The position numbers and the translations under genes were made by a program. DNA of 64,000 bases. It comes from Mycobacterium noviomagense (lineage in GTDB: Bacteria > Actinomycetota > Actinomycetes > Mycobacteriales > Mycobacteriaceae). Shown here one piece after another: positions 5,773 to 55,610 of this stretch. The stretch is from NCBI RefSeq assembly GCF_010731635.1, contig NZ_AP022583.1:4216001-4280000 (forward strand), in the 5' to 3' direction. Below the pieces are notes generated by a model. The model had not been told where the DNA came from and did no database searches. It saw only the letters and a program-made list of their open reading frames with translations. Each line of letters starts with the position of its first letter. Positions within the stretch are counted from its first letter, which is position 1.

Positions 5773-7575
5773 TCAGCCAACGCCGGCTTGGACAACTTTG
5801 ACCACGACCAGCACACCGGCGAGGACCAAGTAGACGCGGAGCGTCAGCAGCCCTGCCCGCCGTACTGGCGACATCACCGGCCGCTCGAGGGTCGCGAACG
5901 CGGGCATGCGCCAGGTTGCACGCACCTTGTTGCGAAAAGCTTTGCGGTCGGCGCGGGTCAACGTGGGGAAATTGTCCAGTTCTTCCAACTGTTCGGGATT
6001 GAGCGCACCCAACGGCACGGTGTCCTCCGCGTCGTGTCGGTCGGCGTACCAACCGATTGCGAAGACGATCACGGCGCCGAGTAGGCCGATCGCGCCACCG
6101 CCAACCAGGGCACCCTCGAGCGTGTCGGTTGACAGGTTCGGAAACAATGTCACCGCCGTCAACATCAACGACAGCACGACGAGCGACCACACGATCATCC
6201 AAGCCAGGGCATTCTGCCGGAAACTGTTCACCCACGGCCCCAGTACCGGACGGTCGTTGCACAGGAGAACCAGAAATACCGTTGCCGACGGCAGCAGGAT
6301 GCCGGCGAGAACCTGCACACCCTGCGTGATCAGTCCCAGGACATGATCGGGGCTGAATGCGACCACAGCCGAAATCCCAAGCAGCGCAGCGTAAGTACTG
6401 TAGAACAGCGGCGCTTCGGTCATCTTCCAATGCAACGAATGCGGCTTGCCGAGCGTGTCACCAAGCGCGTAGGTGGTGGACAGCCCGATCACGTTCGCGC
6501 CGATGAGCGAGCAGTCCAGTAACACGATCGCGAACAGCACGCCGACGGTGTGGCCGACGTGGTGGGACAGCTGAGCAGCGACCGCCCCGGCGTCGGTGAA
6601 GTTCCCTGCGTCGCTGGTGCGGCCCAACCCGAACGCGGTGGCTGCCATGAGCGCGATGCCCCCGCCGATGACCCCGACAATGCCGATAGCCAGATCGGCA
6701 CGCCCGTACGGTATCCAGCGGGGCGTGATGCGTTTGTCGACGACATTGGACTGCTGAAAGAACAGCTGCCAGGGCGCCACTGTGGTGCCTACGATCGCGA
6801 TGATCACCATCAATACGATCGAGTCGGGTTCGCCCGGCAAGGAAGGCACCAGCCCACGGGCGCTTTCCCCTAGCGTGGGATGCACCAACAGCACCACCGG
6901 GACAAGCGCCAGGTTTATTGCCAGGAGCACGAACATCAGTTGCTCCCAACGACGGAACGAACCGCCTGCGACCACTCCGAAGAGCAACACCGCGGCAGCC
7001 GGAATCGCGATAGCTCTCGGGCAGCCCAGAAATCCGAGTGCCAATGAGACACCGATGAATTCGGTGACGATCGTCAACGCGTTGAGAATCAACAAGTCAC
7101 CGATGCTGAATGCGCCCCAAAACTTGCCGAACCGTTCGAAAATCAGCCGCGCATGACCAACTCCGGTGACCGCGCCCAACCGCAGCACCATCTCCTGGTT
7201 GACGTAGAGCACTGGGATCATCAACAGCAACGTCCACAACAGGCTCATCCCGTAGTTCTGCCCAACCTGGGCGTAGGTCGCCACGCCACCGGCATCGTTG
7301 TCGCCGATCATCACGATCAGTCCCGGCCCGGTGATGACCATCAGCGTTCGCAGCCGCTGCCAGCGGCTGCGGCCCGGGCCAGTGGCGTCGCGTGCGATGC
7401 GGCCGAACGCGCCAATGATGTCGCCGACATGTGCCGAATCGATCACCGCCGACCCGGATTCGCTGGCGATCACATCCGCTGCGACATGGCTACCATTATC
7501 GCCCGGGGCGCCGTCGGTGGTCGCTGAGCTACCAACGCCGACAATGTCGTCTGGCCGGGTGGAGATCTCAGTCAT
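5773..7575 (-). CDS. NRAMP-like divalent metal transporter (atypical metal site)
   Basis: 600 aa with a roughly 75-residue cytosolic N-terminus, then the NRAMP membrane core and a hydrophobic C-terminal helix. The TM1 motif, D-P-G-N in MntH/NRAMP, reads D-A-G-G (residues 94-97). The TM6 M-P-H motif reads A-P-W (267-269), so the soft-metal-coordinating Met is gone. NRAMP relatives that lost this Met have been described as Mg2+ carriers (general knowledge), so Mg2+ or Mn2+ import is likely here (inference). An N-terminal segment D-S-A-H-V-G-D-I-x-G-A-x-G-R-I (46-60) is shared with the second NRAMP gene at 14737. The start ATG 7575 follows GAGAGG. It sits downstream of the leftward M-box. Confidence 0.88.
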   Translation of the reverse strand: MTEISTRPDDIVGVGSSATTDGAPGDNGSHVAADVIASESGSAVIDSAHVGDIIGAFGRIARDATGPGRSRWQRLRTLMVITGPGLIVMIGDNDAGGVATYAQVGQNYGMSLLWTLLLMIPVLYVNQEMVLRLGAVTGVGHARLIFERFGKFWGAFSIGDLLILNALTIVTEFIGVSLALGFLGCPRAIAIPAAAVLLFGVVAGGSFRRWEQLMFVLLAINLALVPVVLLVHPTLGESARGLVPSLPGEPDSIVLMVIIAIVGTTVAPWQLFFQQSNVVDKRITPRWIPYGRADLAIGIVGVIGGGIALMAATAFGLGRTSDAGNFTDAGAVAAQLSHHVGHTVGVLFAIVLLDCSLIGANVIGLSTTYALGDTLGKPHSLHWKMTEAPLFYSTYAALLGISAVVAFSPDHVLGLITQGVQVLAGILLPSATVFLVLLCNDRPVLGPWVNSFRQNALAWMIVWSLVVLSLMLTAVTLFPNLSTDTLEGALVGGGAIGLLGAVIVFAIGWYADRHDAEDTVPLGALNPEQLEELDNFPTLTRADRKAFRNKVRATWRMPAFATLERPVMSPVRRAGLLTLRVYLVLAGVLVVVKVVQAGVG

Positions 7576-7638: not shown

Positions 7639-7845
7639 TCATTTGCGGTCGCTTTCAGCACGGGACCGATGACCGCCCGGGGTGGCAGTGATTACTGCCG
7701 GCGGCATTGTCGAGACATATAGGGCGGCTCGCTGCTGTGGAGCCAGATTGCAGCGAGCGCGTAACCGGCCCGCCATCTGCCGAGCGGCGTGTAACCCGAT
7801 CCACCGGTGGGTCCTTGGAATCCGCTGTGCAACAAAACGAGTCAT
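7639..7845 (-). CDS. Small orphan protein 2 of the leftward M-box unit
   Basis: 68 aa, basic, beginning M-T-R-F-V-A-Q. A clear TAGGAGAA ribosome site precedes ATG 7845 by seven bases. No domain is recognised. It lies 132 bases after the second minus-strand leader ORF and 63 bases before the NRAMP-like gene. Its first residues and ribosome site resemble those of orphan 1 (8080-8451), and both loosely recall PE protein starts (M-S-F-V-T-T-Q). In M. tuberculosis the other M-box gene, Rv1535, is also a small orphan; whether they are related needs alignment. Confidence 0.6.
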   Translation of the reverse strand: MTRFVAQRIPRTHRWIGLHAARQMAGRLRARCNLAPQQRAALYVSTMPPAVITATPGGHRSRAESDRK

Positions 7846-7977: not shown

Positions 7978-8058
7978 TCAGACGGCAGAAGGAATGCCGC
8001 GGCCGGATTGGGACGGAACGGACTTCGAATACGGATATGGACTATCGCTCTGATTCAT
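7978..8058 (-). CDS. 26-codon leader ORF, copy B
   Basis: ATG at 8058-8056, stop TGA at 7980-7978. A perfect AGGAGG (8074-8069) lies ten bases upstream. The peptide contains Q-S-D-S-P-Y-P-Y-S-K-S-V and ends G-I-P-S-A-V. It aligns without gaps to copies A (8582-8662) and C (9602-9682). The ribosome site starts six bases after the stop of orphan 1, and the ORF precedes orphan 2 by 132 bases. Likely a cis-acting leader peptide rather than a functional protein. Confidence 0.78.
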   Translation of the reverse strand: MNQSDSPYPYSKSVPSQSGRGIPSAV

Positions 8059-8079
8059 TTCGCCCTCACCTCCTCACGG

Positions 8080-8451
8080 CTAGAACACACGCTGTGTCGC
8101 AATTATCTGCAAGTCCTGACGGCCCTCGGGCAGCTTCTTGCCGATGCGGCCGCGATAGTGCGACCACGGCAGACGGTGCTCAGCCGGCGTGCCCACCATC
8201 TGGTCGAGCAGGTTCGTGGCATGTAGGGCCAGCGCGACATGATGCTGGACATGCCCTAAATCGCTGAAGGCCCGGAACATGTCGGCGCAGCTCACGTTTG
8301 GATCTGTTATCCCCGATAGGACCTCGAGTGCGTCACAAAGCGCCGCTCGGACATCCCCGCAGGCTCGGTGGATCTGGCGCTCGGGGTTAGGAGCGGGCAT
8401 TTGCTTTGCCCTCGGGCCACTCGGATGTGCCTGTGTCGCAACAAAATCCAT
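8080..8451 (-). CDS. Small orphan protein 1 of the leftward M-box unit
   Basis: 123 aa, starting M-D-F-V-A-T-Q at ATG 8451 after the ribosome site CAGGAGAA. The ribosome site and first seven residues resemble a PE gene start, but the rest does not follow the PE domain: a helical stretch with D-V-R-A-A-L-C-D-A-L-E-V-L, then H-V-Q-H-H-V-A-L-A-L-H. It could be a decayed PE gene with a replaced body or a lineage-specific gene. It is the first gene behind leader ORF A (130-base gap), and its stop abuts the ribosome site of leader ORF B. No function can be assigned. Confidence 0.6.
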   Translation of the reverse strand: MDFVATQAHPSGPRAKQMPAPNPERQIHRACGDVRAALCDALEVLSGITDPNVSCADMFRAFSDLGHVQHHVALALHATNLLDQMVGTPAEHRLPWSHYRGRIGKKLPEGRQDLQIIATQRVF

Positions 8452-8581
8452 GATGTTCTCCTGGCAGCAGCCCAACCGGCTGGCACGCAGAATTCCGCCG
8501 AGGGCGAGCGAATGCCGGCGCGCTTCATCGCTCTGCGCACCGATAGCGCGCAGACGTCAGCGAAACAGCGTCCGTTAACGC

Positions 8582-8662
8582 TCAGGCGGCTGGAGAGATG
8601 CCGTGACCGGATCGGGACGAAACGGACTTCGAATACGAATACGGACTGTCGCTCGGACTCAC
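8582..8662 (-). CDS. 26-codon leader ORF, copy A
   Basis: GTG at 8662-8660, stop TGA at 8584-8582. AGGAGG at 8678-8673 is ten bases upstream. The peptide contains P-S-D-S-P-Y-S-Y-S-K-S-V and ends G-I-S-P-A-A. It lies between the leftward M-box hairpin and orphan 1. Relative to copies B and C it shows synonymous wobble changes (Asp GAC against GAT; the same Ser and Tyr codons), which supports selection on the peptide. See the findings for the proposed Mg2+-sensing role. Confidence 0.8.
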   Translation of the reverse strand: MSPSDSPYSYSKSVSSRSGHGISPAA

Positions 8663-8716
8663 TTCGCCCTCACCTCCTCACGGCCGGGGCACACGCGGGT
8701 GCCATCACGTTACACA

Positions 8717-8917
8717 ACGGGGTGAGGCGACCTGGCGACTCGGCCAGGGGCGGCACCCCTCTCGTCTGAGCTTTGGCACTGCAAGGCGTATCCGGAAGAT
8801 CCGGAAGCCACTTGGGCTCAACCCTTAAGCCGGGAGGAGCTGTCCTGACCCTGGGCGTCTCTCGACGTTCGGGGTCAGTGGCCTGTATCCCTGCAGACGC
8901 CTCACCTAGCGAGGTGC
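8717..8917 (-). promoter_or_regulatory. M-box (ykoK) Mg2+ riboswitch, leftward copy
   Basis: Read on the minus strand, 8917 to about 8757 carries the M-box landmarks in order: CTAGGTGAGGC, GTCGAGAGACGCC, GGGTCAGGACAG, then CAGTGCCAAAGCTC and a closing CGAGAGG. A GGGGTG...CCTGG...CCAGG...CACCCC hairpin follows (about 8760-8717) as the expression platform. It differs from the rightward copy by one base in roughly 165. M-boxes turn expression on when Mg2+ is low. This copy should control orphan 1, orphan 2, the NRAMP-like gene and the K+ channel. Confidence 0.93.
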
Positions 8918-8927
8918 TTGCCCCTAC

Positions 8928-8957
8928 ATGCTGGCACTCACACCTGGTGCCCGTCAA
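8928..8957 (-). promoter_or_regulatory. Candidate promoter for leftward M-box transcript
   Basis: TTGACG (8957-8952), an 18-base spacer, and CAGCAT (8933-8928), one mismatch from the mycobacterial TANNNT -10. A start near 8921 would place the M-box at the very 5' end of the RNA. The rightward promoter has the same layout, which strengthens both. Confidence 0.55.
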
Positions 8958-9305
8958 ACATTTGGCAAAATTCGCTCCGCCGAACTCCATGGCGCCACGG
9001 CCGAGGCGTTAATAAAACACGCAGCCGCGACATCAGACTCTGTCAACATCTTGGGTGTGGTTGCGCCGGCGCGCTTTTGGAGCGGCCCAGATGTGCTGCA
9101 GTGGCCAGACTGCCTAGCTGCGTACGTTCCTGACGAAGGCCGATCAGCCCCGATTTGTTCACGCCCGCGATGACGCGGGCCTCGGAACGCCGATGCCCGA
9201 AGCCGGCAAGCCAGCCAGTCAGCTGCGCCTGACTCGCACGAATGCCGGCACCTCGAGACCGGCGCGCGCCGTTGGTGACATATCGCACTAGGTCACGGTG
9301 TTGGG

Positions 9306-9334
9306 TTGACGGACGGCCTTCCGGGTGCCACGAT
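9306..9334 (+). promoter_or_regulatory. Candidate promoter for rightward M-box transcript
   Basis: TTGACG (9306-9311), a 17-base spacer, and CACGAT (9329-9334). It predicts a start near 9341, a few bases before the M-box. Architecture matches the leftward promoter. Confidence 0.55.
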
Positions 9335-9345
9335 TGCCCATGCAT

Positions 9346-9545
9346 GCACCTCGCTAGGTGAGGCGTCTGCAGGGACACAGGCCACTGACCCCGAACGTCG
9401 AGAGACGCCCAGGGTCAGGACAGCTCCTCCCGGCTTAAGGGTTGAGCCCAAGTGGCTTCCGGATCTTCCGGATACGCCTTGCAGTGCCAAAGCTCAGACG
9501 AGAGGGGTGCCGCTCCTGGCGGAATCACCAGGCTGCCTCACCCCG
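9346..9545 (+). promoter_or_regulatory. M-box (ykoK) Mg2+ riboswitch, rightward copy
   Basis: Same landmarks as the leftward copy: CTAGGTGAGGC at 9354, GTCGAGAGACGCC near 9398, CAGTGCCAAAGCTC near 9482, and a closing CGAGAGG. The GC-rich hairpin at about 9504-9544 has no U-tract, as is usual for mycobacteria. In M. tuberculosis an M-box precedes the PE20-PPE31 operon (Rv1806 on), which matches the genes here. It should derepress PE-PPE-PPE-esxM-esxN at low Mg2+. Confidence 0.94.
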
Positions 9546-9601
9546 ATGTGCGACATGGTGGCACTCCCATGTGCCCTTGGCCCTGAGGAGGTGAGAGCGG
9601 A

Positions 9602-9682
9602 ATGAGTCGCGGTGATAGTCCGTATCCGAGTTCGGTGACCGTTTCGTTCGGATCCGACCCCGGCATCAATCCCGTCGCCTGA
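9602..9682 (+). CDS. 26-codon leader ORF, copy C
   Basis: ATG 9602, TGA 9680-9682, with GAGGAGGTGAG upstream giving AGGAGG ten bases before the start. The peptide begins M-S-R-G-D-S-P-Y-P-S-S and ends G-I-N-P-V-A; length and register equal copies A and B, with D-S-P-Y and G-I-x-P conserved. It lies between the rightward M-box and the PE gene, 126 bases before the PE start. Most likely a regulatory leader peptide. Confidence 0.78.
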   Translation: MSRGDSPYPSSVTVSFGSDPGINPVA

Positions 9683-9808: not shown

Positions 9809-10105
9809 ATGTCTTTTGTCACTACACAGCCGGATATGTTGGCCGCGGCAGCGAGCCAATTACAGGGACTTGGCTCGGCATTGGCCGCCCAGAACGCGGC
9901 GGTAGCAGCGCCGACGACCGGCGTGGTGCCCGCTGCTGCCGACGAGGTATCCGCCCTGACTGCAGCACAATTCGCGGCACACGGGCAGCTGTACCAGGCC
10001 GTCAGCGCCCAAGCCACGGCAATCCACGAGATGTTCGTGACGATCTTGGGGACCAGCGCCGGATCGTACGCGGCCACTGAGGCGGCGAACGCCACGGTCT
10101 TGTGA
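9809..10105 (+). CDS. PE family protein (PE20-like), PE domain only
   Basis: 98 aa, consisting only of the PE domain: helix-turn-helix with P-E-like N-terminus (M-S-F-V-T-T-Q-P-D) and the C-terminal type VII secretion signal Y-x-x-x-E at Y87-E91. PE proteins pair with PPE proteins and leave the cell through ESX-5. The start ATG 9809 has GAGGAGAA upstream; an upstream in-frame start at 9764 would lack a ribosome site. First gene after the rightward M-box and leader ORF. By position it matches Rv1806 (PE20), whose PE20/PPE31 pair is implicated in Mg2+ passage across the outer membrane. Confidence 0.93.
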   Translation: MSFVTTQPDMLAAAASQLQGLGSALAAQNAAVAAPTTGVVPAAADEVSALTAAQFAAHGQLYQAVSAQATAIHEMFVTILGTSAGSYAATEAANATVL

Positions 10106-55331: not shown

Positions 55332-55386
55332 CTGGTCCGCGCTCATAGGCCTGAATAGCAGTCGGTAAAATCGGCTGTGCATCGAT

Positions 55387-55610
55387 CCCGCGCGGGAGAG
55401 TTCCGTGACCGCCAGCCACGGACGCCGAAGGAGCAACACCTCTCCGTCAACCTCTCAGGCACCCGGACCGCGCGGGGACACGATGCCTCTGGAAAGCGGT
55501 GACAATGTTCACCCGCCGATGGGGAAAGACATGTTGGGCTTAGCGCAGCTGTCGAATCTCTCAGGCGCCCGGCTCGGGTAGGGACAGAGGGAGAGGACCC
55601 GTAGTCCTCT
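55387..55610 (+). promoter_or_regulatory. Tandem glycine riboswitch of gcvB
   Basis: Aptamer 1 (about 55387-55485) has GGGAGAG, GCCGAAGGAGCAA and CTCTCAGGCACCCGGACCGC. Aptamer 2 (about 55488-55590) has GGAAAGCGGTGAC, GCCGATGGGGAAAG and CTCTCAGGCGCCCGG. A seven-base hairpin AGAGGAC/GTCCTCT (55592-55598 with 55604-55610) follows and could be the switch or attenuator. Glycine should activate gcvB. Confidence 0.95.

Follow-up and report, generated by a model that had tools for sequence, protein, structure and literature searches.

Short leader ORFs, probably constrained at their start in mycobacteria, accompany M-box riboswitches in Mycobacterium noviomagense and other actinomycetes

What does a 26-codon open reading frame (ORF) with one and the same peptide core do three times within a single mycobacterial locus? 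The question is raised by a 64,000-nucleotide (nt) stretch of the Mycobacterium noviomagense genome (contig NZ_AP022583.1, positions 4,216,001 to 4,280,000; the whole stretch is referred to as the window, and positions are counted from its first letter). ORF A (8662-8582, minus strand; GTG start; VSPSDSPYSYSKSVSSRSGHGISPAA), ORF B (8058-7978, minus; ATG start; MNQSDSPYPYSKSVPSQSGRGIPSAV), and ORF C (9602-9682, plus; ATG start; MSRGDSPYPSSVTVSFGSDPGINPVA) each consist of 26 sense codons and a stop. A Shine-Dalgarno (SD) sequence, AGGAGG, is separated from the start codon by exactly 10 nt in each case (A, 8673..8678, minus; B, 8069..8074, minus; C, 9586..9591, plus), and the next likely start codon follows after 130 nt (A; 8451), 132 nt (B; 7845), or 126 nt (C; 9809). 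In our alignment, D-S-P-Y at residues 5–8 is invariant, so that Pro7 is present in all three peptides; Y-S-K-S-V is common to A and B, and all three carry G-I-x-(P/S) near the end. An earlier note on this DNA had drawn attention to the three ORFs, their spacings, and these shared motifs, and the observation itself was confirmed on every one of these points. The likeness is above chance, because A and B are 85.8% identical across 106 nt (blastn, E 1e-29) and a model of the SD and ORF finds matches across the genus. The SD box of all three copies carries TGA in all three frames, so any upstream reading frame terminates there. The answer that we favor, at roughly even confidence and from sequence comparison, is that the three ORFs belong to one repeated leader cassette, which works in cis and affects the ribosome through the first codons of the ORF.

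Two M-box aptamers (Rfam RF00380) are present in the window, back to back and pointing outwards, at 8750..8920 on the minus strand (152.6 bits) and 9343..9513 on the plus strand (151.8 bits), compared with a gathering score of 44. ORFs A and C start 87–90 nt behind these aptamers, and behind each aptamer the order is stem-loop, AGGAGG, 26-codon ORF. B itself lacks an M-box: its start lies 21 nt past the stop codon of the preceding gene and 691 nt past the end of the M-box of A, on the same strand. The description of all three as M-box-controlled leaders in the earlier note is therefore accurate for A and C and not for B.

The core of the observation is an already known family. It is in print as uORF2/Rv1805A of M. 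tuberculosis (D'Halluin et al., RNA 2026; PMC12810186), so the suggestion that the ORF might be undescribed did not hold; C occupies the position orthologous to Rv1805A. According to the 2026 paper, uORF2 sits behind the pe20 and rv1535 M-boxes and is expressed, and one M. tuberculosis copy is translated. In the M. tuberculosis copy, an upstream anti-SD can mask the initiation region and the end of the aptamer competes for this anti-SD, a platform in which anti-SD/anti-anti-SD switching is combined with Rho-dependent termination in the leader. Rv1535A and the M-box-free homologue Rv0115A also belong to the family, Pro7 and the N-terminal part of the peptide are conserved, and the peptide is called mycobacteria-specific, with its function left open (PMC12810186). 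The window shares with this family the M-box, strong SD, short ORF, conserved Pro7, and a following pe20 or rv1535-like gene. Present here and absent from the available portions of the 2026 account are selection limited to the first ~10 codons, near-fixed codons, a covarying stem-loop before the SD, the spread of such ORFs beyond mycobacteria, and an intergenic copy (B) behind an M-boxed copy and ahead of a transporter; these are the additions made by our analysis. A literature search, which covered few subscription journals, returned in the text available no account of the ORF outside mycobacteria or of M-box leader peptides at large.

The 4.78-Mb genome, assembled as one contig, contains four M-boxes. 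An rv1535-like M-box elsewhere in it is followed by a fourth 26-codon copy, MSSSESPDRYPGPVSSRTGPRHAASS, and no leader ORF was found behind the remaining one, which lies ahead of a Stealth-like gene. A sequence-only model of the SD and ORF (R1), built from the four copies in this genome, matched 124 of 248 genomes of the genus (E<=0.01), and Rfam M-boxes were found in 130 of the 248; single matches are those among the best 150 listed for each search. Reliance on R1 alone was avoided by a count anchored on the aptamer, for which every Rfam M-box was taken from 28 mycobacterial genomes that were chosen rather than drawn at random. An R1 match lay no more than 250 nt downstream of 63 of these 67 M-boxes, at least one of the matches (L109) being degenerate with no clear start or core, and one further M-box (L278) is followed by a clear but divergent ORF, VISGDSPHRQQLPH..., which brings the total to 64/67. 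The three M-boxes without a leader ORF all precede similar Stealth-type genes (L004/L281, L279, and L280); Stealth_CR1-3 domains were identified in the L004 gene, the one run on Pfam. The same 28 genomes gave 88 ORF matches, 25 of them with no Rfam M-box within 250 nt; several of the 25 are weak, and two (L080 and L110) carry an aptamer remnant detected with nhmmer.

Similar ORFs were also found outside the genus. Draws of 200 genomes from the order and 394 from the class yielded 17 non-mycobacterial M-boxes, and each is followed by a short ORF behind an SD, 54–155 nt behind the aptamer (17/17; ORFs chosen by eye from lists of SD-led ORFs). Examples of their starts are MSPGHSPRL, MSPGHSRCL (three times), MSSGSSPQP, MTSGSSPQP, MSPGRSPLS, MSPNGSN, MSISDRPQP, and MPDDSRS. 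AGT occupies exactly codon 6 in 10/17, and outside the order G-x-S is found at residues 4–6 in eight. The downstream genes, ten of which were run on Pfam, encode Nramp (2), CorA (2), MgtE (2), MgtC, E1-E2 ATPase, and BPD transporter proteins, with one unmatched. One other family was then sampled with 200 genomes, 50 of them with M-boxes, and the best SD-led ORF of 8–75 codons was picked without any motif; 58 of 60 M-box rows were used (one on a 116-nt fragment and one below the Rfam cut-off were dropped), and four M-boxes are shared with the set of 17. A full SD match was present in 57/58 leaders, compared with 7/58 on the reverse strand and 1/58 in shuffled sequence, and AGT or AGA occurred within codons 2–8 in 51/58, compared with 3 and 9, respectively. 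The commonest start, MDSDSPGR (14/58; GAT AGT CCG GGC CGA), is near the mycobacterial rv1535 type (DSPDR); DSP occurs in the first eight residues of 15/58, and S-P or R-P in residues 5–8 of 36/58. Some of the picks (e.g., L373 and L374) look unrelated. Restriction of the family to mycobacteria is not borne out by these ORFs, and common descent of the mycobacterial and non-mycobacterial leader ORFs is likely as judged from their likeness. The ORF is tied to the aptamer and not to any one gene, given its presence behind 64/67, 17/17, and 57/58 M-boxes and the variety of the genes downstream.

Selection was assessed on a set of 188 mycobacterial ORF rows (185 distinct), of which 176 were used for codon counts and 182 could be assigned to a type; two typed rows without a recognizable SD were dropped, and the remaining 180 were reduced to 148 by similarity and to 146 after two degenerate rows were removed by hand. 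The ratio of nonsynonymous to synonymous differences per site (pN/pS) was computed for full-length copies (24 or 26 codons) whose residue 6 is S, R, C, or G, within three types comprising 20, 29, and 33 sequences, and relatedness was handled only by nearest-neighbor pairing (10 independent pairs for the nramp type, 14 for pe20, and 16 for rv1535). In codons 2–11, pN/pS was 0.07 (nramp), 0.28 (pe20), and 0.31 (rv1535), and from codon 12 to the end it was 0.77, 0.99, and 1.06, respectively. The window pairs, which offer few sites, gave 0.35 in codons 2–11 versus 0.86 in the rest (A-B), 0.45 versus 2.07 (A-C), and 0.55 versus 2.84 (B-C). Because pN/pS is low in codons 2–11 and near 1 beyond them, these values suggest that selection on the peptide is confined to its start in the three types tested, and such an early-only constraint fits a peptide that acts on the ribosome while it is still short.

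A free small peptide that works in trans (the 2026 paper raises the PE20-PPE31 transporter as a possible target; PMC12810186) would agree with the several copies per genome, the M-box-free copies, and the conserved early residues. It is quite unlikely in our judgment, because the second half of the peptide is neutral, the ORF is kept before unrelated transporter families with no PE/PPE gene following, and copies accompany nearly all M-boxes individually, where a trans factor would need no more than one per genome.

The codons themselves are also constrained. Asp is residue 5 in 151 of the 176 copies; Ser2 is encoded by AGT in 158/159, Ser6 by AGT in 159/161, and Tyr8 by TAT in 104/106. In four long genes of the window, AGT accounts for 8/148 Ser and TAT for 8/38 Tyr codons. 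All four Pro codons are in use at Pro3 and Pro7. Where residue 6 is changed, the third T is retained in 12 of 15 copies; where residue 8 is changed, it is retained in 31 of 70, the remainder being mostly GAC in the rv1535 type. With Ser2, Ser6, and Tyr8 nearly fixed as AGT, AGT, and TAT, the counts indicate that synonymous sites are not free and that particular codons, letters, or the RNA are selected as well. The often synonymous differences between A, B, and C had been taken as a mark of selection on the peptide; this agrees with the low pN/pS in codons 2–11, but it overlooks the constraint on synonymous sites and the near-neutral codons from 12 onwards. The same data bear on the proposal that the act of translation alone matters, with ribosomes on the ORF holding off Rho whatever the peptide. 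Rho termination and the translational platform of the published copy (PMC12810186) would accommodate it, as would the freely varying second half, but neither the low pN/pS in codons 2–11 nor the near-fixed codons would be expected, and we consider it very unlikely.

Constraint on the RNA was examined next to that on the codons. A stem-loop precedes the SD of A (8688..8703, minus; GGCAC/GTGCC) and of C (9560..9575, plus; GGCAC/GTGCC, identified by sequence and one nt out of register), and a candidate one before the SD of B (8083..8098, minus), found by eye, overlaps the end of the preceding gene. The covariation alignment comprised 57 leaders from 120 distinct sequences, of several types, with and without an M-box, and included A; it left out window copies B and C, near-duplicates, the mgtE type, other rows that were divergent or cut short, and the rv1535 type, whose stem sits at a different place. 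All 285 cells of the 5-bp stem were paired in these 57 leaders, compared with 20–74% in slid versions, and 31 cells were changed on both sides, compared with a shuffle mean of 10.7 (0 of 500 shuffles as high). The energy of the stem-loop is unremarkable relative to shuffles, the rv1535 type excepted, so the case for it is made by the compensatory changes and not by energy.

Other pairings were considered and rejected. In consensus folds, the region of the SD and start codon is paired with the distal half of the ORF. This pairing is slightly better than in synonymous shuffles (mean z by type, −0.36 to −1.66), but it does not exceed codon-permuted controls (−0.19 to −0.65) and shows no significant covariation. 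A pairing between the aptamer segment CGGATACG and the ORF segment CGTATCCG, an 8-nt match in some pe20-type copies, was on average no better with a type's own aptamers than with those of other types (6.44 versus 6.12; for the rv1535 type, 6.19 versus 6.47). Pairing of the aptamer tail with the leader was type-specific for pe20 only. Inspection by eye suggests a start-codon hairpin (GGGC or GGAC with GUCC) in many leaders, though its formation is impossible in B and C. When all mycobacterial copies were tested together for covariation, differences between the types dominated the result. If the start of the ORF were conserved as an RNA element, with the reading frame incidental, then the near-fixed AGT and TAT, the third T retained at residue 6, the stem-loop before the SD, and the consensus folds would all find a place. 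The failure of the start/far-half pairing against its controls, the loss of the third T in more than half of the changes at residue 8, and codons 3, 5, 7, and 9, which vary mostly at third bases, make this extremely unlikely.

Known leader peptides before Mg2+ transporters offer another comparison. MgtL, in the mgtA leader, is likewise a short ORF ahead of a Mg2+ transporter with its key residues at the very start and with Rho involved (PMC11282234). It differs in carrying Glu2 and Asp4 (EPDP; PMC11282234), whereas the window copies have Asp5 as the single acidic residue within residues 2–11, and A and C have an M-box upstream. The mgtQ ORF of the Salmonella mgtCBRU operon resembles B in that it is an intergenic short ORF with an AGGAGG, ahead of a Mg2+ transporter (PMC8092293), but it has 8 codons with Asp2 and Glu5 (PMC8092293), compared with 26 codons with Asn2 and Asp5 in B, and an mgtQ-type leader also uses alternative stem-loops to hide or expose the downstream RBS; the two are alike in place only. 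By analogy, the earlier note had proposed a second, translation-based Mg2+ sensor. Ribosomes would drop off at the acidic, proline-bearing start at low Mg2+, and the freed RNA would refold so that downstream transcription or translation continues. The position in Mg2+ leaders, the constraint on only the first ~10 codons, the prolines at 7 and often at 3 and 9, the intergenic place of B, and the acidic residues at both positions 2 and 4 in 24/58 leaders of the other family, as in MgtL, are in keeping with such a sensor. Yet in residues 2–11 there is one acidic residue in 104 of the 146 mycobacterial copies, two in 39, and none in 3; there is none either in 13/58 leaders of the other family, and Asp5 is replaced by Ser, His, Arg, or Gly in several non-mycobacterial leaders. 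Because the repeated acidic residues at the peptide start are absent from A, B, C, and many others, the ORFs are not classed as MgtL type. A conserved, M-box-tied leader ORF with early selection on the peptide survives from that proposal, and the argument from an acidic chain is weak with a single acidic residue; the interpretation is partly supported. Mg2+-sensitive drop-off at the leader ORF is possible as far as the sequences go, and a second sensor of the MgtL/MgtQ kind is, on balance, unlikely.

The reading as a cis-acting leader is preferred because the ORF stays with the aptamer as the transporters change, its second half is neutral in the types tested, and its start is constrained in both peptide and codons. 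These features favor a leader with a regulatory role over a finished protein, and the M-box-free copies agree with this in that they also precede a gene: in all six Rv0115A-type copies examined, a gene of 58–59 codons follows at 63–82 nt. The cassette would consist of the stem-loop, a strong SD, the short ORF, a spacer, and the first gene. Low Mg2+ would free the SD and allow ribosomes to load on the leader ORF; the S-P or D-S-P segment, together with the U-ending codons, may slow or alter these ribosomes while the chain is short. Escape of RNA polymerase from Rho and translation of the first gene would then depend on whether these ribosomes are present or are lost early. The remainder of the ORF would need only to stay open.

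Several points weigh against this account. R1, which gathered the mycobacterial copies, favors a conserved start and so lowers pN/pS there, although the bias does not extend to the counts anchored on M-boxes or to the picks made without a motif. Two of the five covariation measures for the stem-loop fell within the shuffle range: a two-sided change was seen in 3 pairs, a number reached in 179 of 500 shuffles, and there were 5 further pair types, a number reached in 437 of 500. The RNA pairing tests gave no pairing that accounts for the near-fixed codons. In the other family, 29/58 ORFs end in G-(T/A/M)-R, so the end of the ORF may matter outside mycobacteria. In the available text of the 2026 paper, the peptide had no effect on M. 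smegmatis biofilm, and the reported Rho termination site lies upstream of uORF2 (PMC12810186), so that termination need not depend on uORF2 translation.

B differs from the other copies in its setting. It lies between a 123-codon gene (8080..8451, minus; 131 codons from an upstream TTG), which has no Pfam match and which we take to be Rv1805c-like, and, on the same strand, a 68-codon gene (7639..7845, minus) followed by a transporter gene (5773..7575, minus); we infer that the genes around B form one transcript. The transporter has the NRAMP fold, and among solved structures its nearest match is the Mg2+ transporter EleNRMT (7qia, with E 3e-56, compared with 9e-15 for the next chain). Its helix 6 reads GTTVAPW, aligned with GTTIAPW of 7qia, and thus has Ala for Met and Trp for His of the MPH-like motif, the substitutions that mark NRMT proteins (PMC8806188). 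Together with the closeness to 7qia, this makes Mg2+ the likely cargo rather than Mn2+, as predicted from sequence; what seems to be the same M-box branch is called manganese-type in the 2026 account (PMC12810186). An M-box before an NRAMP-related Mg2+ transporter is also known for NrmT of Clostridium acetobutylicum, where the leader has an intrinsic-terminator platform (PMC4072509); in the window, a leader ORF stands in between. In the reduced genome of M. leprae TN (L262), the M-box, leader ORF, and NRAMP gene are retained in order. On our preferred account, B would be the same cassette reused between genes, giving the transporter half of the operon its own translational gate under the M-box of A.

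Among the loci examined, an M-box-free copy behind an M-boxed copy and ahead of an NRAMP gene was seen only in this window. In M. fragae (L268), an M-box and a uORF are followed by a gene related to the 123-codon one, behind which come two NRAMP genes but no second uORF. Several genomes have same-strand ORF pairs in their pe/ppe loci, at distances of 1.6 to 5.5 kb (1.6 kb in, e.g., G180, G072, and G022). When 3-kb loci were compared, A was closest to leaders before relatives of the 123-codon gene, and B was about equally like those and A; because each has closer or equally close relatives in other genomes, a recent tandem duplication of A into B was rejected. Three M-boxes on one strand within ~7 kb were found, among the matches listed, in one other genome (G070, contig C11, about 96031-103079).

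On the plus strand, C is followed by a pe20-like PE gene (9809..10105) and then PPE genes; the minus strand carries the transporter operon. The PE and PPE genes by themselves mark the window as mycobacterial. The genes behind the three ORFs start alike, with MSFVTTQ (9809), MDFVATQ (8451), and MTRFVAQ (7845), in similar SD-start contexts, which hints at a shared origin of leader and gene start or at PE genes having been captured by the leader. The 123-codon gene has relatives in only 8/248 genomes of the genus (E<=1e-5), and an M-box and leader ORF lie upstream of several of these relatives. The 68-codon gene belongs to a family of 58–71 codons without a Pfam match (ending ...RANLYVSRMPVAVITASLGGHP or RAERYVAHMPTAVLGAC), which is found behind the leader ORF in transporter-type and Rv0115A-type loci (the window gene, L064, L066, L070, L071, L074, L092, and L157); the 58–59-codon gene ends in RAERYVAHMPTAVLGAC, which is similar to the end seen in the 68-codon gene family, RANLYVSRMPVAVITA... 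(L157). Used as a query for homologues, the 68-codon protein matched no sequence but its own. Elsewhere in the window, tandem glycine riboswitch aptamers are present at 55383-55597 on the plus strand (RF00504; 68.9 and 47.1 bits).

More broadly, and tentatively, actinomycete M-boxes in general might have two layers, in which the aptamer opens the SD and the first ~8 codons of the ORF gate ribosomes according to Mg2+ or elongation speed. A Pro-linked segment would be read through U-ending codons (Ser-AGU, Asp-GAU, and Tyr-UAU) before the Mg2+ transporter is made, and the cassette would be portable, reused between genes (B) and without an aptamer (Rv0115A type). If these readings hold, then the question about Rv1805A shifts from the job of a small protein to the effect of a leader on the ribosome. 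Layered control by RNA and ribosome could then be studied well on a riboswitch that is joined, throughout a bacterial class, by a conserved leader peptide.

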